Source: SAR324 cluster bacterium SAR324-CTD7B (GTDB lineage: Bacteria; SAR324; NAC60-12). From it: DNA of 45,658 nt. The notes below the pieces were generated by a model. That model saw nothing but the letters and a program-made list of their open reading frames with translations, was not told where the DNA came from and searched no databases. Positions 5,785 to 23,456 of the stretch are shown in pieces (position 1 is the stretch's first letter; each line of letters opens with the position of its first letter). The DNA is taken from the NCBI GenBank assembly GCA_002082305.1, contig LSNO01000085.1, forward strand, positions 1 through 45,658, written 5' to 3'. Both the position numbers and the translations under genes were made by a program.

Positions 5785-5811
5785 TAATCACTAAAATATG
5801 AAAGGTATGAT

Positions 5812-6093
5812 ATGCACAAATACAACTTTGAGAATGCTACAGAGAAGAGACAAGCAGATAAAGAGTTAGGACATATCCTCATTCCGTATCCAGATGGACA
5901 AGTGAAACACCCTGAACACTTGCAACAGCACGAAACCCTGCAGGTGTTACAGAGGTATGCATTAAATGGAAATGCAGAAAAGTGTAAAGAGATGATAGCA
6001 GAACTTCCAGAGCATCAACGAAAGGATACTATAAGAATGTTAAAAGGTGCTGTCAGAGAACATGGAAGAGAAATAGAGTTAGAAGATACTTAG
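5812..6093 (+). CDS. Hypothetical protein of the virus-like cluster
   Basis: A 93-residue product with no family I recognise. It is hydrophilic and helical (QQHETLQVLQRYALNGNAEKCKEMIAELP) and ends in an acidic tail. GAAAGG lies about eight bases before the chosen ATG; two upstream ATG triplets (5799, 5808) are not better placed. It is the last gene of the plus-strand cluster and is followed by a strong stem-loop before the convergent ABC transporter operon. Confidence 0.6.
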   Translation: MHKYNFENATEKRQADKELGHILIPYPDGQVKHPEHLQQHETLQVLQRYALNGNAEKCKEMIAELPEHQRKDTIRMLKGAVREHGREIELEDT

Positions 6094-6140
6094 TTGATAT
6101 TAAAGGGAGAGTATTGTAACTTAAGCAAGTGCTGGGAAAG

Positions 6141-6178
6141 AGTCCGGAAGCAACACAAGACTGCGTTGCTTCCGAACT
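6141..6178. terminator. Stem-loop between convergent operons
   Basis: CGGAAGCAAC at 6145-6154 and GTTGCTTCCG at 6165-6174 form a perfect 10-bp stem, extended by AGT/ACT after one mismatch, with a 10-base loop. It lies between the end of the small-gene cluster and the end of the pyrimidine operon. Neither strand has a good T-run, so it may block transcription or protect transcript ends rather than act as a classic terminator. Confidence 0.55.
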
Positions 6179-6194
6179 AGAAATTGAAATGGAA

Positions 6195-7187
6195 TTACAT
6201 AGCATTCCAGATAGAGTGAGTCCATGCGCCTTTAGGCTTTTTGGAGATCACAGGATCGGAATCAGATGACATCAGAACATCGACTGTGCGCCTGTAATCC
6301 GCTGGAATCAGGTAACCAATGCCCTGGGGCTGATTGCCAACCAACTTGTTTATTTCACGCATCATCCGACGCTGATGTTTTTCTGTCTGTGCACCGGTAT
6401 CGTCATTTTCCAGGACAATATCTGCTGCTTCATCAGGATGATCTGCTGCATACTTCCAACCTTTGATTGAAGCTTTGAGGAAGCGGGCCATTTTACTGAC
6501 AAAAGCCTTTTTTCTCAGATTTTTTTCCATTACATACAAACCGTCTTCCAAGGTAGAAACACCTTGATCTTCATATTTGTAGACCACTAATTCTGATGGA
6601 CTGAGGCCTGCATCAACAATTTGCCAGTATTCGTTGTAAGTCATGGTTGAAACACATTCTGCCTGCTTCTGCAGAATTGGATCTACGTTAAAGCCCTGCT
6701 TCAAAACAGTCACTCCGTTTGAACCGCCGGTGGTTGGAATACCCAATTTGCTCATCCAGCTCAGGAAAGGATATTCGTTTCCATAGAACCAGACTCCCAG
6801 CGTTTTCCCACGAAAATCAGCCGGTGATTTGATCCCGCTGTCTTTGCGGCAAGTGAGCATCATTCCTGACTTTTTGAAAATTTGGGCAATGTTCACCAGA
6901 GCCACACCTTTTTCACGTGATGCCAAGGCAGCAGGCATCCAATCGATGATTACATCGGCTCCTCCTCCTGCTATAACCTGAGGCGGCGCAATATCCGGTC
7001 CACCCGGCTTGATGGTCACATCCAGCCCTTCGGCTTGATAGTAGCCCTTGTCCTGGGCTACAAAGTAACCTCCAAACTGAGCCTGTGTGACCCACTTCAA
7101 CTGAATGGTAACTTTATCTGCTGCTTGTGTGGAAAATGCAAACCCAACTGTCAGCAACACCATCACTACTTTTTTTATTATACTCAT
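6195..7187 (-). CDS. ABC transporter periplasmic binding protein (NMT1/THI5 type), probably pyrimidine
   Basis: The protein has a Sec signal peptide (MSIIKKVVMVLLTVGFAFSTQAA) followed by VTIQLKWVTQAQFGGYFVAQDKGYY, the opening of the NMT1/THI5-like binding-protein family, which takes up pyrimidine-like, thiamine-precursor and sulfonate ligands. GGAGAG lies just before the second ATG, so the start is set at 7187 rather than 7199. It is the last gene of the operon, after two permeases, an ATPase and four pyrimidine-degradation enzymes, so uracil, thymine or a related catabolite is the most likely ligand. That assignment comes from context; the binding residues do not reveal it. Confidence 0.82.
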   Translation of the reverse strand: MSIIKKVVMVLLTVGFAFSTQAADKVTIQLKWVTQAQFGGYFVAQDKGYYQAEGLDVTIKPGGPDIAPPQVIAGGGADVIIDWMPAALASREKGVALVNIAQIFKKSGMMLTCRKDSGIKSPADFRGKTLGVWFYGNEYPFLSWMSKLGIPTTGGSNGVTVLKQGFNVDPILQKQAECVSTMTYNEYWQIVDAGLSPSELVVYKYEDQGVSTLEDGLYVMEKNLRKKAFVSKMARFLKASIKGWKYAADHPDEAADIVLENDDTGAQTEKHQRRMMREINKLVGNQPQGIGYLIPADYRRTVDVLMSSDSDPVISKKPKGAWTHSIWNAM

Positions 7188-7242
7188 AATTCTCTCCATT
7201 CGAGATTAAAATTAAGTCAGCTTTTTGTTTGCAACAAGCAAG

Positions 7243-8361
7243 TTAGCTGACCCTGAAAGATGGGTGCCATCCTGTAAACTGCCGTTCCAAAAAAGCCAGC
7301 AAGGCATAGAACAACGACCCGGACAATGCTGCCACCGCAATGGATGCCCATACGACGTCAACATTCATTCGACCAATTTCGGTGGAAATACGAAACCCCA
7401 TTCCGACAATCGGTGTACCGAAGAACTCCGCCACTATGGCACCAATAAGCGCCAAAGTAGAGTTGATCTTCAATGCGTTAAAAATAAAAGGCAGTGCGTT
7501 CGGAAGACGTACCTTAAGAAGCATCTGCCAGTAGTCTGCTGCATAAGAGTGCATTAAGTCAAGCTCCATTCGATCCGTGGACTTTAATCCTGTAAGAGTA
7601 TTCACCAGCATCGGGAAAAAGGTCATCATAACCACAACCGCTGCCTTGGACTGCCAGTCAAACCCAAACCACATAACCATGATTGGAGCTACCCCAACGA
7701 TGGGCAGAGCACTCGCCAGATTCCCCAGTGGAAGCAGGCCCCGCTGTAAAAAAGGAACTTTATCAACCAAAACGGCAACCACAATTCCGGAGACACAACC
7801 CATGAAAAAACCGGCTAGCACTGCTTTCAAAAATGTTTGCTGAAAATCAGCCCAGAGCATTTCCAGTGAGTTTGCAAAAGCAACTCCGATCAAGGACGGT
7901 GCCGGCAGCAAAACCTGTGGTACCTCGAAACCTATCGTCAACATTTCCCACAAATAAAGCAGCATCCCTCCAAATAATAATGGAACAAGTAAATTGATGA
8001 CAATTCCAGTTTTTTTATTGAGTTGGGTTTCCACCCTCGACCAGAATCCCATTACCTCCCACATCAGACCCGCCAGCGTCACAACATACAGCCAAATGCC
8101 CCAGGAAGTTGTACCCGATTCTGCAGAATGTACACTGTTTAAGGTTGCCATACATCCGGATGCAACCACGAGAGTTATCACAATTTTACCCGGCATCAGC
8201 ACGGTTACCCCTTTGCGAAAAAGAGCTGCTGCAGCTCCGATCAGTGGCATCAGGGCAAACAGAAAAGTGTTAACTCCAAACGACATCCAGTCCCTGGAAA
8301 ACAGAAACTGGATTGGAAAACAGATTATAAATAACCAGTAGAAAATTCCGGAAATTTTCAT
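7243..8361 (-). CDS. ABC transporter permease 2 with extra N-terminal membrane domain
   Basis: The C-terminal part, from about residue 140, is a BPD_transp_1 permease domain including the EAA-type loop LMHSYAADYWQMLLKVRLPNALP that contacts the ATPase. The first 120 or so residues hold several additional hydrophobic segments not present in a normal permease of about 260 residues. The true start is taken as ATG 8361, whose ATGA overlaps the stop of permease 1 (8358-8360), giving 372 residues. It probably forms a heterodimer with permease 1. It lies between permease 1 and the binding-protein gene. Confidence 0.83.
   Translation of the reverse strand: MKISGIFYWLFIICFPIQFLFSRDWMSFGVNTFLFALMPLIGAAAALFRKGVTVLMPGKIVITLVVASGCMATLNSVHSAESGTTSWGIWLYVVTLAGLMWEVMGFWSRVETQLNKKTGIVINLLVPLLFGGMLLYLWEMLTIGFEVPQVLLPAPSLIGVAFANSLEMLWADFQQTFLKAVLAGFFMGCVSGIVVAVLVDKVPFLQRGLLPLGNLASALPIVGVAPIMVMWFGFDWQSKAAVVVMMTFFPMLVNTLTGLKSTDRMELDLMHSYAADYWQMLLKVRLPNALPFIFNALKINSTLALIGAIVAEFFGTPIVGMGFRISTEIGRMNVDVVWASIAVAALSGSLFYALLAFLERQFTGWHPSFRVS

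Positions 8362-10030: not shown

Positions 10031-10031
<1 letters not shown>
9246..10031 (-). CDS. ABC transporter ATP-binding protein
   Basis: A complete 261-residue nucleotide-binding subunit of the SsuB/TauB type. Walker A is GPSGCGKTT at 44-52, the Q-loop is in YVFQAPALYPWRTV, the signature LSGGMQQ is at 141-147, Walker B with the catalytic Glu is LMLMDEP at 161-167, and the H-loop is VFVTHSIPEA. The start codon overlaps the hydA stop by one base (TAATG on the coding strand), showing tight coupling with the catabolic genes. It should energise the importer formed with the two permeases. Confidence 0.92.
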
Positions 10032-11485
<1,454 letters not shown>

Positions 11486-11514
11486 TTATATTTAGTTTTT
11501 CATATTCTACAGAT

Positions 11515-12789
11515 TTAATTCTCTTCCACCCTCATCGGATTATTCGGATGGGTTGTCCAGTTCTGATATTCAGTTCCTGAATCAACTCGTTCCATGGTGA
11601 TGCAGTCCGGTACAGGACAGGCAAACATACAGAGATTGCAACCAACACATTCTTCGTCAATGACCTCAAATCGTCGATCACCATTTGCTTTTATTATACG
11701 AATGGCCTGGTGCGCAGCATCCTCACATGAAATATGACATAATCCACAATGGATGCAAGTCGATTCGTCAATGCGGGCTTTGATGTCGTATTTCAGGTTC
11801 AGAAATTGCCACTCAGTCACATTTGGAACAGCAATGCCCCTGAAATCCTCCAACGTCGCATAGCCCTTTTCGTCCATCCAGTTATTCAGTCCGTCAATCA
11901 TGTCATCCACTATTTTAAAACCATAGTGCATGACTGCAGTACAAACCTGCACACCGGCAGCTCCCATTGCGATAAATTCGGCGGCATCACGCCAGTTTGA
12001 TATTCCTCCGATGGCTGAGATTGGTAAATTTTTCGTTTCCGGAGCTTTGGCAATTTCTGTCACCATGTGCAAAGCTATCGGTTTGACTGCCGGTCCGCAA
12101 TATCCGCCGTGAGAGCCTTTTCCGTCAATAGTCGGTTCGGGAGCCATCAAATCCAGATCAACGGAAACAATAGAATTGACAGTGTTGATTAAAGCTACTC
12201 CATCACCTCCTCCGGCTTTTGCCGCGTTTGCCGCATGGCAGATATCCGCCACATTCGGTGTCAGCTTGACCAGGCACGGTAAGTCTGTACACTCCTTAAC
12301 CCAGCGGGTGACCATTTCAATGTACTCCGGAACCTGGCCGACAGCAGAACCCATTCCCCGTTCAGACATTCCGTGTGGGCATCCAAAATTCAGTTCCACT
12401 CCGTCACATCCGGTGTCCTCTATTTTATTAATGATGAACTGCCAGTCTTTTTCAGTGCATGGTACCATCAGTGAAACAACAACCGCTCGATCAGGCCAGT
12501 CTTTTTTGACTTGCTTGATGTCCTTAAGATTGTCTTCAAGCGGACGGTCAGTAATCAATTCAACGTTGTTAAATCCCATCATGCGTTGACCATTATAGTG
12601 CACTGCACCATAACGTGAACTGACATTAACGATGGGAGGATCAATTCCCAAAGTTTTCCAAACCACTCCGCCCCATCCCGCACGAAAAGCACGTTCAACA
12701 TTGTACAATTTGTCTGCGGGTGGAGCGGAGGCTACCCAAAATGGATTTGGGGCCGTGATACCGGCAACATTGCAACTTAAATCAGCCAT
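11515..12789 (-). CDS. preA: NAD(P)-dependent dihydropyrimidine dehydrogenase, catalytic subunit
   Basis: This 424-residue protein has an N-terminal FMN barrel of the dihydroorotate dehydrogenase family and a C-terminal ferredoxin domain with two [4Fe-4S] motifs (CIHCGLCHISCED and CVGCNLCMFACPVPD). Substrate- and FMN-side stretches include ELNFGCPHGMSERGMG, LVKLTPNV, LINTVNSI and PISAIGGI. With PreT it reduces uracil or thymine to the dihydro form in the cytoplasm. Where the mammalian enzyme has its catalytic Cys in GMGLACGQ, this protein reads GMGSAVGQ, so the general acid may be the nearby Ser; from memory other bacterial enzymes look similar. Confidence 0.93.
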   Translation of the reverse strand: MADLSCNVAGITAPNPFWVASAPPADKLYNVERAFRAGWGGVVWKTLGIDPPIVNVSSRYGAVHYNGQRMMGFNNVELITDRPLEDNLKDIKQVKKDWPDRAVVVSLMVPCTEKDWQFIINKIEDTGCDGVELNFGCPHGMSERGMGSAVGQVPEYIEMVTRWVKECTDLPCLVKLTPNVADICHAANAAKAGGGDGVALINTVNSIVSVDLDLMAPEPTIDGKGSHGGYCGPAVKPIALHMVTEIAKAPETKNLPISAIGGISNWRDAAEFIAMGAAGVQVCTAVMHYGFKIVDDMIDGLNNWMDEKGYATLEDFRGIAVPNVTEWQFLNLKYDIKARIDESTCIHCGLCHISCEDAAHQAIRIIKANGDRRFEVIDEECVGCNLCMFACPVPDCITMERVDSGTEYQNWTTHPNNPMRVEEN

Positions 12790-12820
12790 GATTGTTTTTT
12801 GATTATTGATTTCAGATTGA

Positions 12821-14158
12821 TTATTTTAATCTTCTATGAATAGAGAGTGCGGCCTGCTTGCCGTCTTCAACGGATTGTACAGTTAAATCCTCTCCGGAAT
12901 CCACACAATCTCCTCCGGCCCAGACGCCTGGTAGAGACGTTTCAAATTCCAGGTTGACGGTTATTTTTCCACCTTCAATTGCAGGCATTTCCGAACCAGA
13001 AAAAACAGAGTCTTCCAATAACTGACCGATAGCCTTAAAAACAACATCAGCTTCCATATAACGTAACTCTCCTGTTCCTCTTAGTTTCCCTTCCGGATTC
13101 AGTTCCGTGCACTCAAACTCAATCCCGGTAACATGTCCATTTTCTGACCGCAAACATTTTGGAGCAACCCAATGTTTTACACGGACTCCGTTGGTTTGCG
13201 CGAATTCCTGTTCTTTCCAGGTGGCACTCATTTGTTCTGGACCGCGCCGATAGGTCAAGGTGACATCTTCAGCACCAAGTTTTTTTGACTGAACCGCAAT
13301 GTCAATAGCCGTATTTCCGCCACCTATAACAACAATACGCCTTCCAACGGACAGTTCTTTCAGGCTTTCAGATTGTCGCAACTCTGAAATAGTTTCCACT
13401 GCATCGTATACACCTTTGGGTTCTTCACCTTCCAATCCAAGTGAATTTACATCTCCCAAACCGACACTCAGAAAAACCGCATCGTATTCTTTTCTAAGAT
13501 CATCGAGAATTACTTCTTGACCTAACTTTTGATTAGTTCTGGTTTCAATACCTCCGATTTGCAAAATAAAATCAACTTCACGCTGCGCAAAGTCGTTGAC
13601 AGTTTTATAGGCCGCAATTCCGTATTCATTTAGGCCGCTTAATTTTTCGCGGGCCTCAAAGACCACAACCTCATGCCCTGAGACTGCTAGTTGATGTGCA
13701 CAGGAAAGTCCTGCCGGACCGCCGCCGACAACCGCGATTCTTTTACCGGTCGGTTCACCTCTTTCAAAAAATGTTTCACCACTCTCAAAAAACCAATCTG
13801 TAGCATAGCGCTGCAATTCTCCTATCCGTACCGGTTGGTGCTCCTGTGCTTCCCGGACACATGCCCCTTGACACAGAATTTCTGTCGGACAAACACGGGC
13901 ACACATTCCGCCCATAATGTTTTGTGAAAGAATGTCTTTTGCAGATCCTTTAAGGTTGCCGGTAGAAATTTTGCGGATAAAATTTGGTATGTCGATAGCG
14001 GTGGGACACGCATCAATACATGGTGCGTCATAACAAAAATAACAGCGGTTTGCCTCAACAATCGCATTCCCCGAATTCAAAGGTGGATGAGAATCGGAAA
14101 AATTTTCGGAAAGCTGTTCCTGCGATAAGCGTCCGGCCTGAACGTCGATAGTGGTCAT
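12821..14158 (-). CDS. preT: NAD(P)-dependent dihydropyrimidine dehydrogenase, electron-transfer subunit
   Basis: A GltD-like flavoprotein that passes electrons from NAD(P)H to PreA. An N-terminal iron-sulfur region carries CYFCYDAPCIDACP and GGMCARVCPTEILCQGAC. The FAD site is GGGPAGLSCA and the NAD(P)H site GGGNTAIDIAV. A C-terminal GGDC motif completes the flavin domain. The open frame extends to a TTG at 14218 next to the pydC stop, but ATG 14158 (MTTIDVQAGRL) gives 445 residues and a family-like N-terminus and is preferred. It is followed 31 bases later by preA. Confidence 0.9.
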   Translation of the reverse strand: MTTIDVQAGRLSQEQLSENFSDSHPPLNSGNAIVEANRCYFCYDAPCIDACPTAIDIPNFIRKISTGNLKGSAKDILSQNIMGGMCARVCPTEILCQGACVREAQEHQPVRIGELQRYATDWFFESGETFFERGEPTGKRIAVVGGGPAGLSCAHQLAVSGHEVVVFEAREKLSGLNEYGIAAYKTVNDFAQREVDFILQIGGIETRTNQKLGQEVILDDLRKEYDAVFLSVGLGDVNSLGLEGEEPKGVYDAVETISELRQSESLKELSVGRRIVVIGGGNTAIDIAVQSKKLGAEDVTLTYRRGPEQMSATWKEQEFAQTNGVRVKHWVAPKCLRSENGHVTGIEFECTELNPEGKLRGTGELRYMEADVVFKAIGQLLEDSVFSGSEMPAIEGGKITVNLEFETSLPGVWAGGDCVDSGEDLTVQSVEDGKQAALSIHRRLK

Positions 14159-14218
14159 GGTTTTTTTCAGCGTTTTCGGCGGTAATCTTTGAACAAATAA
14201 CACCACCAGTTGAAACAA

Positions 14219-15082
14219 TTATTGCAGTACAGTTAAATCTCCATAAAGCTCCGGACGACGGTCACGGAAGAATTGCCAGAGGTTGCGTATTTCTCTGACT
14301 GCATCCATATCCATGTCATGAATCAGCAAACCATCAGTCTTATCATCCAACTGTGCTTCAATTTTACCTCGTGGATTTACTATGTAGCTTGAGCCATAAA
14401 ACGTACCAATATTCCAGGGTTCTTCGGTACCAATTCGATTGATAGCACCAATGTAGCAGCCATTAGCTGCAGCTGAGGCCGGTTGTTCCAGTTCCCATAA
14501 ATATTGAGATAGTCCTGCAACCGTGGCGGAAGGATTAACAATATACTCTGCACCGTTCAAAGCCAGAGCCCGCCAACCTTCCGGGAAATGCCTGTCGTAA
14601 CAAATATACACTCCAAGTTTACAGTAAGCAGTTTCAAAAACAGGATAGCCTAAATTTCCAGGTTTGAAGAAAAATTTCTCATAAAAACCTGCAACCTGTG
14701 GAATATGTGATTTGCGGTACTTACCAAGATATTTGCCGTCTGCATCTATTACTGCTGCAGTGTTATAATACACACCTGTCATTTCCTCTTCATAGATGGG
14801 AACGACAATCACCATGTTGTACTTTTTTGCATATTCCTGCATAAGTTTCGTAGTTGGTCCTTCTGGTATTTTTTCAACAGCTGCATACCATTTTGTATCC
14901 TGGCTGGGACAAAAATATGGTTGTGTAAAGACCTCCTGCATGCAGAGCACCTGAACCCCTTTTTCTCCTGCCTCCTCAATATAAGGGATATGTGCTTCAA
15001 TCATTATTTTGGTAATTTCTCCTGGAGCCATGGATGTATCCCCTTTGAGGGCCATTTGAATCAACCCGCTGCGAACTTTCAT
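14219..15082 (-). CDS. pydC: Beta-ureidopropionase (N-carbamoyl-beta-alanine amidohydrolase), nitrilase superfamily
   Basis: The first gene of the pyrimidine operon. Its 287 residues form a nitrilase-superfamily amidase with the Glu-Lys-Cys triad at Glu50 (CMQEVF), Lys124 (YRKSHIP) and Cys161 (YICYDRHFPEGW). HFPEGWR and GQ/GFYEKFFFKPG-like loops are as in beta-ureidopropionases, which release beta-alanine, CO2 and ammonia from the ring-opened pyrimidine. AAGGAG precedes ATG 15082. The promoter at 15186-15214 drives it. Position beside preT, preA and hydA supports this role over other carbamoylases. Confidence 0.92.
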   Translation of the reverse strand: MKVRSGLIQMALKGDTSMAPGEITKIMIEAHIPYIEEAGEKGVQVLCMQEVFTQPYFCPSQDTKWYAAVEKIPEGPTTKLMQEYAKKYNMVIVVPIYEEEMTGVYYNTAAVIDADGKYLGKYRKSHIPQVAGFYEKFFFKPGNLGYPVFETAYCKLGVYICYDRHFPEGWRALALNGAEYIVNPSATVAGLSQYLWELEQPASAAANGCYIGAINRIGTEEPWNIGTFYGSSYIVNPRGKIEAQLDDKTDGLLIHDMDMDAVREIRNLWQFFRDRRPELYGDLTVLQ

Positions 15083-15350: not shown

Positions 15351-16256
15351 ATGAATGAAAAAACTATTGTAGCCAACGTTTATCCATCTCTCAATTTCAG
15401 TAAGATCAGAGATTATATTACCTTAACAAAACCGAGGTTACTGTCCAGCGTACTGTTCAGCACAGTACTGGGTTATATTCTTCCAGTGGACAGTTCAGCT
15501 GGTGTCTTGCCGCTGCTATATCTTCTGTTAGGTACTGCTATGATTGGCGCAGGTGCAAATACACTTAATCAATGGCAGGAACAAATTCCTGACTCGAAGA
15601 TGAGAAGGACAAAGAATCGTCCTTTACCGACGGGAAAACTAAGTGGGAATGAAGCTTTGGCTTTTGGCATTATTATTTCGGTCGCGGGTTTCACTACATT
15701 ATGGCTTAGTCTAAACATACTTACTGCTGCTCTTGGATTGCTGACCCTCTTTTCTTACATTCTGATCTATACACCTCTAAAACAGAAATCAGTCAGTAAC
15801 ACCTGGTTTGGAGGAATAACTGGCGCATTACCTCCGGTGATGGGCTGGACGGCGGCTAGAGGTACGTTGGACTGGGAAGTCCTGCCAATTTTTGCCCTGC
15901 TTTATTTTTGGCAGCTTCCACATTTTTTTGCAATTGCCTGGATGTATCGTGATGACTACCGCAGAGGCGGTTTCAAAATGCTTTCACTTGAGGATCCAAC
16001 AGGTAAAAAAACCAGTGTTCAAATGCTGTTCTACGGCGGTTTGCTTTTTATTTCCAGCATTGCTATTTTTATTATCGGCCAGTTAAGTCTTGTTTATCTG
16101 GTAAGTGCAGTTATACTGGGGCTGGGATTTTTAGCAGTAATTTCTTTATTTTTTCGGAAAAGCAGTAATGAGAATGCACGTAAAGTTTTTCTTGCGTCCA
16201 TTATTTACTTGCCGGTCTTGAGCAGTATTATTATTCTGGATAGGATTATTTATTAA
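15351..16256 (+). CDS. ctaB: Protohaem IX farnesyltransferase (haem O synthase)
   Basis: A 301-residue UbiA-family membrane prenyltransferase with about nine membrane helices. The first Asp-rich region is seen as NTLNQWQEQIPDSKMRRTKNRPLPTG and the second as WMYRDDYRRGGFKML. It farnesylates haem B to haem O, which CtaA (22464-23456) then oxidises to haem A for the oxidase encoded just downstream. The start ATG 15351 has no evident ribosome-binding site. The opposite-facing pyrimidine operon begins about 270 bases upstream. Confidence 0.93.
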   Translation: MNEKTIVANVYPSLNFSKIRDYITLTKPRLLSSVLFSTVLGYILPVDSSAGVLPLLYLLLGTAMIGAGANTLNQWQEQIPDSKMRRTKNRPLPTGKLSGNEALAFGIIISVAGFTTLWLSLNILTAALGLLTLFSYILIYTPLKQKSVSNTWFGGITGALPPVMGWTAARGTLDWEVLPIFALLYFWQLPHFFAIAWMYRDDYRRGGFKMLSLEDPTGKKTSVQMLFYGGLLFISSIAIFIIGQLSLVYLVSAVILGLGFLAVISLFFRKSSNENARKVFLASIIYLPVLSSIIILDRIIY

Positions 16257-16273
16257 TTTGTTAAGGAGGATTT

Positions 16274-16381
16274 ATGGAGAAAAATGATTCGGATGCATGG
16301 GCACCAAGGGTATTTTATTTGATTTTCAGTGGATGTGTATTGTTTATGCTGGCTGCCTACATTTTTGCGTTTAATTCCTGA
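16274..16381 (+). CDS. 35-residue single-helix membrane protein in the cytochrome oxidase operon
   Basis: A perfect AAGGAGG ends four bases before ATG 16274, the strongest ribosome-binding site in this operon. The product starts MEKNDSDAWAPRVFYL and is followed by one membrane helix (IFSGCVLFMLAAYIFAF) ending in NS. It lies between ctaB and coxB on the same strand, 17 bases after ctaB. Its size, single helix and place suggest a small accessory or assembly subunit of the oxidase, comparable in kind to known tiny oxidase subunits, but I see no homology to a named one. It is short enough to be missed by standard gene callers. Confidence 0.7.
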   Translation: MEKNDSDAWAPRVFYLIFSGCVLFMLAAYIFAFNS

Positions 16382-16459: not shown

Positions 16460-17239
16460 ATGATTGAATATTTTATACTCAGCGCGTCCTCATTTTCAGG
16501 GGATATAGACAACCTCTTTCTTGTGATTACTTTGATCATTGGATTTTGGTTTATTCTTGTATTTGGCGCACTTGTTTATTTCACACTCAAATTTCGCAGG
16601 AAAGACGGTGTAAAGGCCGAGTACATAACCGGCGAGAAGCACAGTGAAACAAAATGGACGCATTATCCTCACTATGCAGTGATAGCTATGGATGTGGTCA
16701 TAATTGCCGCTAATATCATAGTTTGGGTAAACATAAAACAGACTCTTCCTCCTAAAGACAACCTTATCAGGGTCATCGGGCAGCAATGGAGCTGGTCCTT
16801 TGTTGATGCAGGCCCGGATGGGGTCTTGGATACTGCTGATGATATTACTACAGTTAATGATCTGCATGTAAAAGTGGATGAAACATATCACTTTGAATTA
16901 CAGGCACGGGACGTGATTCATAATTTTTCAGTTCCGGTTTTTCGTTTGAGACAGGATGCATTGCCTGGAAGAACAATCAAAGGCTGGTTTAAGCCGACAA
17001 ATACCGGTTCTTTTGATATACAATGCGCTGAAATGTGTGGATATGGCCATGGAATTATGGGTGGTGCAATCACAGTACATACGAAGGAAAGCTACGACGA
17101 AACCATTGTACAGATAAAGAACGGTACATATGAAAGTCACTATCAGAAACGAATGGGAACAAAAACGCCCTTACCATCTAATACCTCGCATACTGAAGGT
17201 CATAATTCCTTCGCTGTGCTGTTAGCAAGTATATTTTAG
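16460..17239 (+). CDS. coxB: Cytochrome c oxidase subunit II
   Basis: The 259-residue protein has two N-terminal membrane helices (about 20-45 and 72-94) and a periplasmic cupredoxin domain. CuA ligands are the His in DVIHNFSVP and Cys, Cys, His, Met in CAEMCGYGHGIMGG. The aromatic electron-entry region is GQQWSWSF. A loop GPDGVLDTADDITTVNDLH follows, a GxDGxxxTADD-type insertion with possible Ca-binding character, reminiscent of deltaproteobacterial subunits. There is no fused cytochrome c domain. ctaB and the microprotein precede it and coxA follows by 21 bases. Confidence 0.93.
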   Translation: MIEYFILSASSFSGDIDNLFLVITLIIGFWFILVFGALVYFTLKFRRKDGVKAEYITGEKHSETKWTHYPHYAVIAMDVVIIAANIIVWVNIKQTLPPKDNLIRVIGQQWSWSFVDAGPDGVLDTADDITTVNDLHVKVDETYHFELQARDVIHNFSVPVFRLRQDALPGRTIKGWFKPTNTGSFDIQCAEMCGYGHGIMGGAITVHTKESYDETIVQIKNGTYESHYQKRMGTKTPLPSNTSHTEGHNSFAVLLASIF

Positions 17240-17260: not shown

Positions 17261-18970
17261 ATGAGCCAAGCAGCTGCCGCAGTCGAAACAGGCATCCATG
17301 CGGAACATCATGAAGATCTGAATTTTTTACACAAATATATTCTGCCTTTAGATCATAAGATCATTGCCATGCAGTACATCTTTACCGGTATGATCATGGC
17401 TATTATAGGTGGATATTTTGCCTATGCTTTCCGGATGCAGCTTGCTTTTCCAGGAGAACTGGTTCCAGGATATGGACTTGTCGGACCCGGTGAATATAAC
17501 ATGCTGGTTACAAATCACGGAACCATCATGATTTTCTGGGTGGCAATGCCAGTACTTATTGCAGGCTTCGGTAACTATCTAATTCCACTGATGATAGGTT
17601 GTGATGATATGGTTTTCCCACGTATAAACCGTTTGTCATATCAAATTTTCCTGGTCAGCGCTCTTGTTTTGATTCTCTCTTTCTTCGTAAAAGGGGGGGG
17701 ATTCGGTGGTGCATGGACTGCCTATCCCCCGCTTTCGTCTGTCGCCGAATACAATCTCACAGACTGGGGTTCTTCTTTGTGGGTGCTTGCCGTGGCTTTG
17801 GAGTTTATTTCCTTTTTATTAGGAGGCATCAATTTTGTCACTACTGCGATGAACGCTCGTGCTCCGGGAATGAAAATGATGGACATTCCAATTGCAGTCT
17901 GGTTCATAGTAATAGCAGTTATTTTGTTCATGGCGTCAGTTGGGCCTCTTATCGCAGGAGCGGTAATGCTTTTTATGGATCAGAGAATTGGTACAACTTT
18001 TTTCCTGCCTTCAGGAGGCGGAGACCCACTCCTTTGGGAACATCTTTTCTGGTTTTTCGGGCATCCTGAAGTATATGTTGTACTGCTGCCGACCTTGGGT
18101 ATAGTGGCGGATATTATCACAGTTTTCTCCAGAAAAAAGTTGTTCGGATATAAAACAGTATTGTACACGGCATTCGCGACCGGTGGTCTATCCTTTGTCG
18201 TTTGGGCGCATCACCAGTTTATAGCAGGCATTGATCCACGAATGGCTAATATTTTCGTCGTGACAACCGTCTTGATTTCAATTCCGCTTGCGGAAATGAT
18301 GTTCAGCTATATTGCCACCCTCTATGGTGGTTCGATTGAATTGAAAACTCCTATGCTCTGGGCCTTGAGTTTTTTGGCGGCCTTCCTGATTGGCGGTGTA
18401 ACCGGAATTTATTTGGGAGCAAGTGCCCTGGATGTATATTTCCATGATTCATATTTTGTACTGGCCCACTTCCATTATACTTTCTTCCCTATCACTATTA
18501 TTGGAATGTTTGCGGCATTAACCTTTTGGTTTCCGAAAATGTTTGGACGCATGATGAATGAAACTCTGGGGAAAATTCATTTCTGGGGTACATTTATTCC
18601 TTTCAACTGTATTTTCCTGCCTCTATTCTTCCTTGGATTGGCAGGCCAGCACCGGCGCATATACAATTACCAGCATTTTCCAGACTTAGCGACACAGGAA
18701 TTACAGAATATTCGGATTTTTGCAACAGTCAGTTTGGTAGTCATGCTGTTATTTCAGCTGGTTTTCGTTTACAACTTTTTCGTCAGCATGTTCAAAGGTG
18801 AAAAGGCACCAGACAATCCTTGGAGAGCAAACACCCTGGAATGGTCTACTTCTTCCCCGCCACCGCACGGCAATTTCAAAAAACTTCCTACTGTATATAG
18901 GGGAGCATATGAATATAGTACACCAGGGCGGGAAGAGGATTTCTGGCCGCAAAATGTAGCACCGGAATAG
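17261..18970 (+). CDS. coxA: Cytochrome c oxidase subunit I
   Basis: The 569-residue catalytic subunit, with about 12 membrane helices. Haem and copper ligands are in VTNHGTIM, GHPEVYVVLLP (with the A1-type Glu and the cross-linked Tyr), WAHHQF and HDSYFVLAHFHYTFF. The Glu in GHPEV marks an A1-type proton pathway. It reduces oxygen to water with electrons from CuA and pumps protons. A run of eight G at 17693-17700 encodes a Gly-Gly-Gly stretch and leaves the frame intact. No truncation is seen. Confidence 0.96.
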   Translation: MSQAAAAVETGIHAEHHEDLNFLHKYILPLDHKIIAMQYIFTGMIMAIIGGYFAYAFRMQLAFPGELVPGYGLVGPGEYNMLVTNHGTIMIFWVAMPVLIAGFGNYLIPLMIGCDDMVFPRINRLSYQIFLVSALVLILSFFVKGGGFGGAWTAYPPLSSVAEYNLTDWGSSLWVLAVALEFISFLLGGINFVTTAMNARAPGMKMMDIPIAVWFIVIAVILFMASVGPLIAGAVMLFMDQRIGTTFFLPSGGGDPLLWEHLFWFFGHPEVYVVLLPTLGIVADIITVFSRKKLFGYKTVLYTAFATGGLSFVVWAHHQFIAGIDPRMANIFVVTTVLISIPLAEMMFSYIATLYGGSIELKTPMLWALSFLAAFLIGGVTGIYLGASALDVYFHDSYFVLAHFHYTFFPITIIGMFAALTFWFPKMFGRMMNETLGKIHFWGTFIPFNCIFLPLFFLGLAGQHRRIYNYQHFPDLATQELQNIRIFATVSLVVMLLFQLVFVYNFFVSMFKGEKAPDNPWRANTLEWSTSSPPPHGNFKKLPTVYRGAYEYSTPGREEDFWPQNVAPE

Positions 18971-19044: not shown

Positions 19045-19626
19045 ATGTCGATGCATGGTCCTATTGCAACACACCGCAGTGCTACAGGCGTGCCAACCGG
19101 GCGCTTAGGAACATGGTGGTTGCTGGCTTCAGAAATTTTTATTTTTGGTGGATTAATTGCCTGCTTTATCCTCTTTAAACTAAATGGAACTCCCGGGTTT
19201 GAAGATGCTTCCCTGACGAGTGTGACTGCAGGAGCTGTAAATACATTTGTACTTCTTACTTCCAGTTTGAGTATAGTACTGGCACATGCTGCAATCGAAA
19301 AAGGAGATCAAAATAAATCATTCACCTACATCTGGTACACAATTGGTGCAGGTCTGGTATTTTTAGGGATTAAAACTTATGAATACACCGGCAAAATTCT
19401 GCATGGTCATACAATTACGGAAAATTTATTCTGGTCATTTTATTATACTATGACCGGATTACATGCCCTGCATGTTATTGGCGGAATGGTTATCATGGCA
19501 CTCATTTCATTTGATATCCGCAAAGGGTACAATTATCAGCGTGTGGAACTGATAGGAATTTACTGGCACTTTGTAGATCTTATCTGGATCTTCTTGTTTC
19601 CTCTCTTGTATATTGCAAATTTCTAA
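19045..19626 (+). CDS. coxC: Cytochrome c oxidase subunit III, first copy
   Basis: A 193-residue membrane protein of the haem-copper oxidase subunit III family with about five helices. Family stretches are GTWWLLASEIFIFGGL, FVLLTSSLSIVLAHAA, GLHALHVIGGM and GIYWHFVDLIWIFLFPLLYI. It stabilises subunit I. This is the shorter five-helix form. A second, diverged subunit III gene follows after subunit IV, so the oxidase may contain two different III-type subunits or a split of roles. Confidence 0.9.
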   Translation: MSMHGPIATHRSATGVPTGRLGTWWLLASEIFIFGGLIACFILFKLNGTPGFEDASLTSVTAGAVNTFVLLTSSLSIVLAHAAIEKGDQNKSFTYIWYTIGAGLVFLGIKTYEYTGKILHGHTITENLFWSFYYTMTGLHALHVIGGMVIMALISFDIRKGYNYQRVELIGIYWHFVDLIWIFLFPLLYIANF

Positions 19627-19656: not shown

Positions 19657-19986
19657 ATGAGTGAAGCTTACGCACATCCCAACTATGTTAAAATATGGTT
19701 TTGGCTTGTTGTTTTACTGCTGATCAGCGTGGCAGGGCCAATGTTGGAAATTCCTGCGCTGACAATCATAACCGCCTTTGGAATTGCAGTCATTAAGGCA
19801 TTCCTTGTTGCAGCTAATTTTATGCATCTGAAGTTTGAAAAACAAATCATTTCGTTTTTACTGATTCTGGCCCTCTGCCTGCTAGGTGTTTTCTTTTTTG
19901 GTGTTGCACCGGATATCATGATGACAGATGGAGATCAGTGGATAGACTGCATTGCAGACAAATCTTGTGTAGAGCAGCGCTTGTGA
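19657..19986 (+). CDS. coxD: Cytochrome c oxidase subunit IV family protein
   Basis: A 109-residue protein with three hydrophobic segments (about 12-30, 32-52, 66-88), matching prokaryotic subunit IV proteins. AFLVAANFMHLKFEK is the typical central stretch. It sits between the two subunit III genes, and its stop overlaps the next start (GTGA, 19983-19986). Function is structural or assembly-related in oxidases of this type. Confidence 0.82.
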   Translation: MSEAYAHPNYVKIWFWLVVLLLISVAGPMLEIPALTIITAFGIAVIKAFLVAANFMHLKFEKQIISFLLILALCLLGVFFFGVAPDIMMTDGDQWIDCIADKSCVEQRL

Positions 19987-20609
19987 CAAACCCCTCCAGC
20001 CAGTCTGTTTTATTTGCCGCCTCAGAAGTTTCTTTGACCAATCGTCCAAAGCGGGCTAAGCCGCCTGTGTCAAGTGGTGTGATTGGAATGCTTATTTTTA
20101 TGGTTACCGAAGCCATGTTTTTTGCAGGTCTCATCAGTGCATACATGGTGATACGTTCCGGCATTGAAGAGTGGCCTCCATGGGGACAGCCCAGATTACC
20201 GGTTGAAACCACTGCATTCAATACTTTAGTTCTTTTGTTGAGTGGGTTAACGATGGGATTTTCACGCAACCTGCTGCAAAAACAAAAATTTCAGGAAGGA
20301 CGCAGATTGCTGGGAATATCCCTTTTATTAGGCACTTTCTTTTTGGTGGCTCAAGGTTATGAGTGGGTGCAATTGCTTAATTTCGGGATGACAGTCTCGT
20401 CCAGTGTGTACGGTGGTTTGTTCTATTTAATAATAGGCGCACACGGATTTCACGTGGTCGGAGTTTTGGCTGTGCTCATCCATGCCTGGAACCGATTGGG
20501 GGCTTCTAATAATCCTATAACTGCAGAAGGACTACTTCCTTTACAACTCCTGTGGTATTTTGTCGTTTGTGTCTGGCCTGTTTTGTATGTGCTGGTTTAT
20601 CTGACCTGA
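19983..20609 (+). CDS. Haem-copper oxidase subunit III, second copy
   Basis: A 208-residue subunit III homologue, with SSGVIGMLIFMVTEAMFFAGLISAY near the start, TFFLVAQGYEW in the middle and GAHGFHVVGVLAVLIHAW near the end. The longest frame begins at 19938 inside the previous gene, but GTG 19983 overlaps that gene's stop as GTGA and gives a normal N-terminus. It is clearly different in sequence from the first subunit III gene, so it is not a recent duplicate. Confidence 0.87.
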   Translation: MTNPSSQSVLFAASEVSLTNRPKRAKPPVSSGVIGMLIFMVTEAMFFAGLISAYMVIRSGIEEWPPWGQPRLPVETTAFNTLVLLLSGLTMGFSRNLLQKQKFQEGRRLLGISLLLGTFFLVAQGYEWVQLLNFGMTVSSSVYGGLFYLIIGAHGFHVVGVLAVLIHAWNRLGASNNPITAEGLLPLQLLWYFVVCVWPVLYVLVYLT

Positions 20610-20656
20610 TGCTAACAGCAAGTTTGAGTACACACCTCTAGAAGAATAATTTGAAA

Positions 20657-20863
20657 ATGCATCTGCAACATTTTCTCCTTTTCCCATTCCTGTTAGGCCT
20701 CCTCTTTGCACCGGAAATAGCAAATGCCTGTGCAGTCTGTTTCTCTTCCAGTGAAGAAACATTGGAAGCATTTTACTTTACGACTATTTTCCTGACTTTG
20801 CTTCCTGTTGTAATGCTCTTCACAATTGGTTATTGGCTGTATAGTAAACATAGAAAAACCTGA
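20657..20863 (+). CDS. Small membrane protein with CAVC motif, cox-associated
   Basis: A 68-residue protein with a signal-like N-terminus (LLFPFLLGLLFAPEIANA), then ACAVCFSSSEETLEAFY, one membrane helix (about 39-61) and a basic tail (YSKHRKT). The CxxC right after the probable signal cleavage site could bind metal or haem or act in thiol chemistry. Similar CAVC-type small proteins accompany oxidase genes in other lineages, to my recollection, but no function is established. ATG 20657 is preferred over TTG 20651. Confidence 0.7.
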   Translation: MHLQHFLLFPFLLGLLFAPEIANACAVCFSSSEETLEAFYFTTIFLTLLPVVMLFTIGYWLYSKHRKT

Positions 20864-21933: not shown

Positions 21934-22467
21934 TCATAAATGGTACAGCATCAGGTAAACCAGTACACCTGTAACTGAGATATACATCCAGAGCGGCAGT
22001 GTAATCCGGGCAATTTTGGGATGCATGGTGAAATTACCCGTTGCCGCAAAGAAAACTGTGGTTAGAACCAGCGGCAAAACTACCACAGAAAGAATAATGT
22101 GCGAAATCAAAATAAAGAAATACAGCGGACGAACCCAGCCTTCACCCTGAAATAACGTGTCCCCATGAAAGGCATGATAGGTGAGGTAGCTGACTAAAAA
22201 TAAAAAAGAAAAAAATAATGCACTAAGCATCATTTTTTTATGACGCACCCGGTTGCCTCTTCTAATAGCTTTAAACCCAAAAATAAGACATGTGGCGCTC
22301 ATTAAGTTCAGCAATGCATTGAGTGCAGGTAGAATTGTAAGATCAAGAGAGCTGCCCTCTACTGGAGTTTCATGAAAGTAGATCAGCCAGAACAAAAATA
22401 ATAAAATCACTGCAGAAGCAATTAATATTAATGTTACTGCACTCCGATTTCCAATTAAAGTTTTCAT
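21934..22467 (-). CDS. DUF420 (YozB/CtaM-like) membrane protein
   Basis: A 177-residue protein with about five membrane helices. NALLNLMSATCLIFGFKAIRRG, HKKMMLSALFFSFLFLVSYLTYH and GNFTMHPKIARITLPLWMYIS match DUF420 proteins, including CtaM, which is needed to make active aa3 oxidase in Staphylococcus. The conserved histidines in those stretches suggest metal or haem handling. It overlaps the ctaA stop by four bases, so it is coexpressed with haem A synthase. A role in oxidase maturation is an inference from family and context. Confidence 0.83.
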   Translation of the reverse strand: MKTLIGNRSAVTLILIASAVILLFLFWLIYFHETPVEGSSLDLTILPALNALLNLMSATCLIFGFKAIRRGNRVRHKKMMLSALFFSFLFLVSYLTYHAFHGDTLFQGEGWVRPLYFFILISHIILSVVVLPLVLTTVFFAATGNFTMHPKIARITLPLWMYISVTGVLVYLMLYHL

Positions 22468-23456
22468 GCTTTCACCAAATTATGATTGCCTTCTGCAGCT
22501 GCAAAAAACAACAGTCCTGTCAGGGTGGCTGCAATTGCAGTATGCGTGGCAGATATTGGCGCAGGTACACGGAATACTGCATTAAGAATCCCCACGCATA
22601 TTTCCAGCAAAATTAGCGCAACAATACTCAGTCCTATTGCACTATGTCCATATCTGTTCTTCAGCCCGGCCCAGGCCATTATCATTAATACTACTCCACC
22701 AATAATGGCTGTCAAGCGGTGCAGCATGTGTATCCATTCGTTTTCATATACAGGAAGAAAACGTCCCTGATAATCTGATGGTGCAGGAGGCAAAATGTAC
22801 TCTTCGATTCCTGTCCACTCAGATAAGTCAGTACCACTCATTCCAAAAGATAAAGAACTTCCTTCATGGCATCCCGGAAATGCTTCACAGTGAGAGCCTG
22901 ATGAAGTAGAGCTATTATAACCTCCGGATATAATCATAATAAAAAGCACAGCCAGCATCAAAACTATGTGGCGTCTCTTTAACTCTCTATCTTTTCCCGG
23001 TTTAGTATGAGTAGAAGAACTGTCTGAAGGATATTCCACATTCTCCAGAAAAGTAACTCTAGCAAAATATACCAAAATTCCAAACAAAATATTTCCGCCC
23101 AGCAGGTGCATTGTAACAACCGGCGGCCAGAGCACCATTGTTACAGTCAGTGCCCCCAAAATTCCCTGGATACAAACTAAAATCAAACTGATTACGGCAA
23201 GTTTTCTATGGCGGCGATATGCAGGTTGCTGAAATGTTTTAACAGTGATTGTAATTATCAAAATTCCCAACAAAGTTGCAACAAACCTATGTCCCGTTTC
23301 CAAAGCAATCTCAAAGCCCGGAGGTGGAATAAATTGTCCGTAGCAAAGCGGCCAGTCCGGACAGGAAAGCCCTGCATTCTTCAAACGTACAAATGCTCCA
23401 AAAGGAATAAGCGGCCAGGTGAGAAGTGCCGCCCCAATGCATAACCATTTCATCAT
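22464..23456 (-). CDS. ctaA: Haem A synthase (COX15/CtaA family)
   Basis: A 330-residue membrane protein with about eight helices, in two homologous halves. The haem-ligand histidines are in ETGHRFVATLLG, VTMHLLGGN, HMLHRLTAIIGG and SATHTAIAAT. It oxidises haem O to haem A, completing the pathway started by CtaB (15351-16256). It is transcribed towards the oxidase operon and coupled to the DUF420 gene by an ATGA overlap. A long periplasmic loop between the halves includes a Cys pair (SHCEAFPGCHE). Confidence 0.92.
   Translation of the reverse strand: MMKWLCIGAALLTWPLIPFGAFVRLKNAGLSCPDWPLCYGQFIPPPGFEIALETGHRFVATLLGILIITITVKTFQQPAYRRHRKLAVISLILVCIQGILGALTVTMVLWPPVVTMHLLGGNILFGILVYFARVTFLENVEYPSDSSSTHTKPGKDRELKRRHIVLMLAVLFIMIISGGYNSSTSSGSHCEAFPGCHEGSSLSFGMSGTDLSEWTGIEEYILPPAPSDYQGRFLPVYENEWIHMLHRLTAIIGGVVLMIMAWAGLKNRYGHSAIGLSIVALILLEICVGILNAVFRVPAPISATHTAIAATLTGLLFFAAAEGNHNLVKA

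Follow-up and report, generated by a model that had tools for sequence, protein, structure and literature searches.

A conserved 35-residue single-helix protein encoded next to coxB is a probable accessory subunit of the aa3 oxidase in SAR324 and other bacteria

Introduction

The cytochrome oxidase operon of SAR324 cluster bacterium SAR324-CTD7B contains, between ctaB and coxB, an open frame of 35 codons. Is this frame a gene, and does its product belong to the oxidase? The original prediction, made from the letters of the DNA, held that it encodes a small membrane subunit of the enzyme that matches no recognised one. In this study, we analysed the frame in the window, that is, the whole stretch of 45,658 nucleotides of contig LSNO01000085.1, and followed its relatives through the genomes of SAR324 and of other bacteria.

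Results

The small gene lies on the forward strand at 16274..16381. It starts with ATG at 16274 and ends with TGA at 16379-16381, and direct reading of its 35 codons gives MEKNDSDAWAPRVFYLIFSGCVLFMLAAYIFAFNS. The start codon is preceded by a perfect Shine-Dalgarno sequence, AAGGAGG (16263..16269, forward strand), and the 4-nt spacer ATTT. This sequence forms part of a longer stretch able to pair with the anti-Shine-Dalgarno, TTAAGGAGG (16261-16269), found 4 nt past the stop codon of ctaB. The calculated pairing with the 16S rRNA anti-Shine-Dalgarno reaches -12.1 kcal/mol, stronger than at any other of the 15 start codons examined in the window, as against 0.1 kcal/mol for ctaB, -2.9 for coxB and -5.3 for coxA. 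Moreover, GGAGG is kept at identical spacing in most copies from the same genus. The product has an acidic head of 12 residues and a single hydrophobic segment spanning residues 13-31 (16310..16366, forward strand; Kyte-Doolittle 2.33), predicted to form a transmembrane helix. Hence, the features first read from the sequence all stand: the frame four bases behind a perfect AAGGAGG, a ribosome-binding site stronger than those of its neighbours, the location between ctaB and coxB, and a soluble head followed by one membrane helix.

An alignment of 30 sequences from several phyla revealed that F14 is invariant and that F24 and F31 are nearly so. In most SAR324 members residue 12, which adjoins the helix, is basic. 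Conservation follows a helical period and peaks on one face of the helix, at positions 13, 17, 20, 21, 24, 28 and 31, although the shuffle test for this pattern is marginal (p about 0.03). No metal ligands are conserved among the 30 aligned sequences.

All genes of the operon are on the forward strand. Upstream of the small gene lies ctaB (15351..16256), identified as a heme o synthase gene by TIGR01473 (E 2.2e-86). Downstream, coxB (16460..17239; PF00116 E 2.7e-14, TIGR02866 E 1.2e-42) encodes the CuA-containing subunit II, with two transmembrane helices at residues 21-39 and 74-92, and coxA (17261..18970; PF00115 E 4.5e-131, TIGR02891) encodes subunit I. The GHPEVY motif, read directly in coxA, is one that we take to be typical of A1-type oxidases. 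A first subunit III gene (19045..19626; PF00510 E 2e-18) is followed by a gene for a caa3-type subunit IV of the COX4_pro family (19657..19986; PF03626 E 2.7e-8, TIGR02229 E 2.1e-12); a known type of small subunit is therefore encoded separately from the 35-residue protein. A second subunit III gene comes next (19938..20609; PF00510 E 4.7e-22), and its start codon is uncertain. The two subunit III genes flanking the subunit IV gene differ from each other, and the second overlaps the latter unless it starts later than 19938.

Several other features of the neighbourhood deserve mention. The second subunit III gene is followed by a gene for a protein of 70 residues (20651..20863, forward strand), with an N-terminus resembling a signal peptide, a CAVC motif and one transmembrane helix, for which no family was found in Pfam or NCBIfam. 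Loci of SAR324, Myxococcota and Verrucomicrobiota show the same pattern downstream of their cox genes, and from its sequence we regard this protein as the operon's second small component to have gone unrecognised. Just beyond the operon, on the opposite strand, are genes for a DUF420 protein and ctaA (21934-23456); DUF420 is presumably the family to which the assembly factor CtaM belongs. On the other side, the operon adjoins a cluster on the minus strand (10031-15082) whose translations, as read by eye, resemble proteins of pyrimidine degradation: a hydantoinase/dihydropyrimidinase, dihydropyrimidine dehydrogenase-like subunits and a nitrilase-type amidohydrolase. According to one report, SAR324 bacteria have neither kind of complex III and possess a 'high-affinity' oxidase (PMC9031357). 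The oxidase of the window, with its GHPEVY motif and haem A genes, looks instead like an A1-type enzyme.

Comparison with related genomes strongly argues that the small frame is coding. All 11 copies compared from the same genus keep it open, and the other two frames contain stops in 10 and 11 of them, respectively. In these copies, DNA identity is 0.69 inside the frame as opposed to 0.48 in the gap before coxB. The pN/pS ratio across the 11 copies is 0.37, which corresponds to a dN/dS of about 0.24 after Jukes-Cantor correction, and full-length matches in genomes of the genus share 50-79% protein identity. Thus, a conserved short frame with a substitution pattern of purifying selection, as anticipated for a true gene, does occur in the relatives. 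Broken copies beside intact flanking genes would have spoken for a spurious frame; we found the frame intact at 23 of 24 SAR324 coxB loci. The sole exception (genome G004, locus L052) carries a 1-base deletion. On the same contig, which belongs to a metagenome-assembled genome of five contigs, a frameshift also splits coxA (5808-7510), and for this reason the deletion looks like an assembly error. A TGA in the copy of another genome (G009) merely places the stop earlier at the C-terminus. Altogether, these sequence comparisons indicate that the small frame is almost certainly a real, conserved gene under purifying selection.

The distribution of the gene follows that of one type of coxB. We surveyed 52 SAR324 genomes and called coxB of the window type at E <= 1e-60. 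The small gene is present in 24 of the 24 genomes with such a coxB, and in a 25th (G008) it lies at a contig end that truncates the adjoining coxB. Both genes are missing from the other 27, which include SAR324 families whose CoxB is of a different type; the small gene therefore tracks the oxidase rather than the organism. Outside SAR324, homologues immediately precede coxB in Myxococcota (Archangium and others), Verrucomicrobiota (including Opitutales), Eisenbacteria and TMED88. At all coxB-linked loci the small gene immediately precedes the gene for subunit II, with a gap ranging from 3 to 156 nt. By contrast, ctaB is the upstream neighbour in SAR324 only: in 7 of 7 non-SAR324 loci tested, the gene before the small gene (or before the fused coxB described below) encodes a di-haem cytochrome c. 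The constant partner is thus subunit II.

A profile built from 30 members was run over 193 genomes from the phylum to which an Archangium metagenome-assembled genome belongs and yielded 23 matches, 21 of them immediately before a coxB of the window type. Among the Myxococcota matches outside the set used to build the profile, 15 of 17 lie 4-28 nt before coxB. When 195 genomes of the phylum holding the Opitutales genome were searched, that genome alone matched, which fits horizontal transfer. A few similar ORFs occur apart from cox genes, and none of these orphans adjoins another respiratory complex. Two SAR324 genomes share a similar one-helix ORF (L177, 5611-5709, MNQNIPEQMASGIFRMIFGGSILFILASAMIWIFDLIPVTG; L178, 5628-5723 in reverse-complement coordinates) in a conserved neighbourhood without respiratory genes. 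This ORF may represent a separate small protein family.

In a tree of CoxB that includes near outgroups, the proteins accompanied by the small gene fall on one side of a single branch, with moderate support (90/87). The presence of the gene requires one change on this tree, and none of 500 shuffles gave a count as low. The nearest outgroup proteins (L045-L049, L156 and L157) have two helices, no extra segment and no accompanying small gene. An aspartate-rich loop of the CuA domain, GxDxxLDTxDD, was considered as a marker of the clade and discarded because the outgroups L156 and L157 share it and L045-L047 contain close variants of it.

One member of the clade departs from the common arrangement. 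Candidatus Tanganyikabacteria (L085) has no separate small gene; here, CoxB bears in frame an extra N-terminal helix containing LARSVFLTTFLGAVIVVGTVLFYIF, which occupies the position of the small protein. The fused frame opens at GTG behind AAGGAG, two bases past the cytochrome c gene. As the fusion is nested within the clade, the likely order of events is that the gene was gained and later fused once. The extra helix scores 4.6 bits against the family profile, a value equalled by 140 of 5000 composition-preserving shuffles and exceeded by some unrelated helices. Because this match is weak, position is the main ground for its homology to the small protein. Should the fusion be accepted, the fused helix must end on the periplasmic side, where the N-terminus of CoxB lies, which implies an N-in/C-out topology. 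A search for a second genome with a fusion of this helix to CoxB found none. At the level of sequence, this one natural fusion, of weak family similarity, supports an association of the small protein with subunit II in the N-in/C-out orientation.

The small gene, coxB and coxA share a reading frame in the window, and to locate the helix AlphaFold2 was run on an artificial read-through chain of the three, with stops read as residues. The model shows a helix at residues 3-33 at low confidence (mean pLDDT 63), too weak for placing it, and a structure search with the model ranks aa3 oxidases first.

As to its family, none of the 30 members has a convincing match in Pfam or NCBIfam, and a search of PDB sequences retrieved no related structure, the only hit being a chance match to PsaX of photosystem I (E 0.45). 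A literature search whose coverage left out most subscription journals found no description of the 35-residue protein. Among the candidates tried, subunit IIa (CbaD, CoxIIa, PF08113) was recovered in 0 of 30 members at E <= 1, with a hhalign probability of 0.9%, and the Thermus IIa control scored 4e-21. The subunit IV of bacterial aa3 oxidases (COX4_pro_2, PF07835) was likewise found in 0 of 30 members and gave no hhalign alignment; the Paracoccus control scored 3e-16. The Pfam scores of both control sequences confirm their identity. CcoM (NF041600) reached at best an E-value of 0.17 in 1 of 30 members, which is not significant. The initial statement that the protein matches no recognised small oxidase subunit is therefore confirmed for Pfam, including PF08113 and PF07835, for NCBIfam and for the PDB.

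Discussion

In kind, the protein fits a familiar description, that of a short conserved one-helix protein from an oxidase operon, which denotes a function and not a sequence family. In gene order, the closest comparison is subunit IIa of B-type ba3 oxidases, a protein of 34 residues in Thermus thermophilus and 41 in Aquifex aeolicus that often goes unannotated and takes the place of the first helix, which its one-helix subunit II lacks (PMC3128077). Subunit IIa shares with the small protein its size, its single helix and a gene directly upstream of that for subunit II, and it is reported to run antiparallel to subunit II's first helix, the polarity also predicted here. Nevertheless, the subunit II served by IIa has one helix, whereas almost every CoxB scored from the small-gene clade has two, and the host enzyme of IIa is B-type rather than an A1-type oxidase with subunits III and IV. 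Subunit IV of the Paracoccus aa3 oxidase is also a short single-helix accessory subunit of an A1-type enzyme, although unrelated in sequence. CydX, CydY and CydZ of cytochrome bd are tiny one-helix proteins encoded in the operon. Their sequences vary greatly and few positions are fixed; each goes with a single clade of the catalytic subunit, and some are preceded by strong ribosome-binding sites (PMC4325964). However, they belong to another enzyme superfamily, and the small protein has no Pfam or NCBIfam match to them. CcoM, a 36-residue subunit of the haem-copper oxidase cbb3 (PMC10433244), differs in that its host is C-type. To the single-helix helpers TorE and NapE of respiratory chains (PMC6134056) the small protein likewise has no Pfam match, and their partners are the c-type cytochromes of TMAO and nitrate reduction. 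Judged by sequence, the small protein resembles the one-helix oxidase partners (IIa, IV, CcoM, CydX/Y/Z) in kind and belongs to none of their sequence families.

Our results thus point to an unrecognised single-helix accessory subunit of the A1-type aa3 oxidase, associated with subunit II, a reading to which we assign a probability of about 0.75. The proposal of a new small membrane subunit of the oxidase is supported by the intact frames, a family spread over several phyla, the constant coxB partner and one fusion to CoxB. We infer that the protein is translated and present in the oxidase complex, where, by analogy, it would act as a stabiliser. The strong ribosome-binding site, which might allow the high or early expression first suggested, would supply enough copies for 1:1 assembly. 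The helix would insert beside the first helix of subunit II, leaving the acidic head of 12 residues in the cytoplasm, and the face with G20, C21, F24, A28 and F31 would pack against the core. Such packing would stabilise the contact between subunits II and I or its lipids, as thought for CydX, CcoM and subunit IV. Of note, some closely related CoxB proteins with two helices lack the small gene, so this helix is not universally required. A bolder version of the proposal would make the protein a stoichiometric, lineage-wide subunit that marks out a distinct branch of A1-type oxidases, one dispersed over several phyla both vertically and by horizontal transfer. It would confer a special property, e.g. 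a supercomplex with a cytochrome c donor in organisms reported to be without complex III. We regard this extension as doubtful.

The same gene order could also point to a transient assembly factor, whose helix guides the membrane insertion of CoxB or helps CuA loading and then leaves the mature enzyme. A strongly initiated gene immediately before coxB would be translated just before subunit II, and CoxB of the clade lacks a signal peptide, beginning instead with a short exported tail. Yet there are other CoxB proteins with two helices and no signal peptide that are not accompanied by a small gene, the fusion to CoxB is permanent, and metal-binding residues are not conserved; this role seems unlikely. 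There is a slim chance that the protein is an adaptor joining the oxidase in a supercomplex with its electron donor, which would be either the di-haem cytochrome c whose gene lies upstream in most lineages or some other donor. Non-SAR324 loci do place the small gene between the cytochrome c gene and coxB, and SAR324 is reported to be without canonical and alternative complex III alike (PMC9031357), so that electrons may reach the oxidase by another route. However, in SAR324 the neighbour is ctaB, and a helix of 35 residues with almost no exposed C-terminus offers little periplasmic surface for docking.

Two further explanations concern the origin of the frame and its status as a gene. An extra hydrophobic segment is present at the N-terminus of many proteobacterial CoxB proteins and L085 has the helix fused, as would be expected if a three-helix CoxB had split to give the small gene, with its helix still in that place. 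We dropped this scenario, now very improbable, once the close outgroups proved to have a two-helix CoxB with no extra segment and no small gene. Moreover, the L085 fusion is nested among CoxB proteins with a separate small gene and so came later, and the proteobacterial segments score no better against the family profile than unrelated helices do. That the frame is a leader peptide or a non-coding spacer, whose translation merely tunes coxB expression, could be read from a strong ribosome-binding site directly upstream of a weakly initiated coxB. This is scarcely credible in view of selection at the amino acid level, residues conserved across phyla, the variable gap to coxB and a fused version in one genome. 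An accessory subunit associated with subunit II remains the reading that we favour.

Lists of bacterial aa3 subunits derive from few model organisms. The carriers of the small gene are bacteria of ocean, soil and lake, among them SAR324, an abundant group of the open ocean. Several Myxococcota are culturable, and hence the claim is open to direct test. If it is true, the aa3 oxidases of SAR324 and many Myxococcota would have an extra subunit absent from family databases and structural models.
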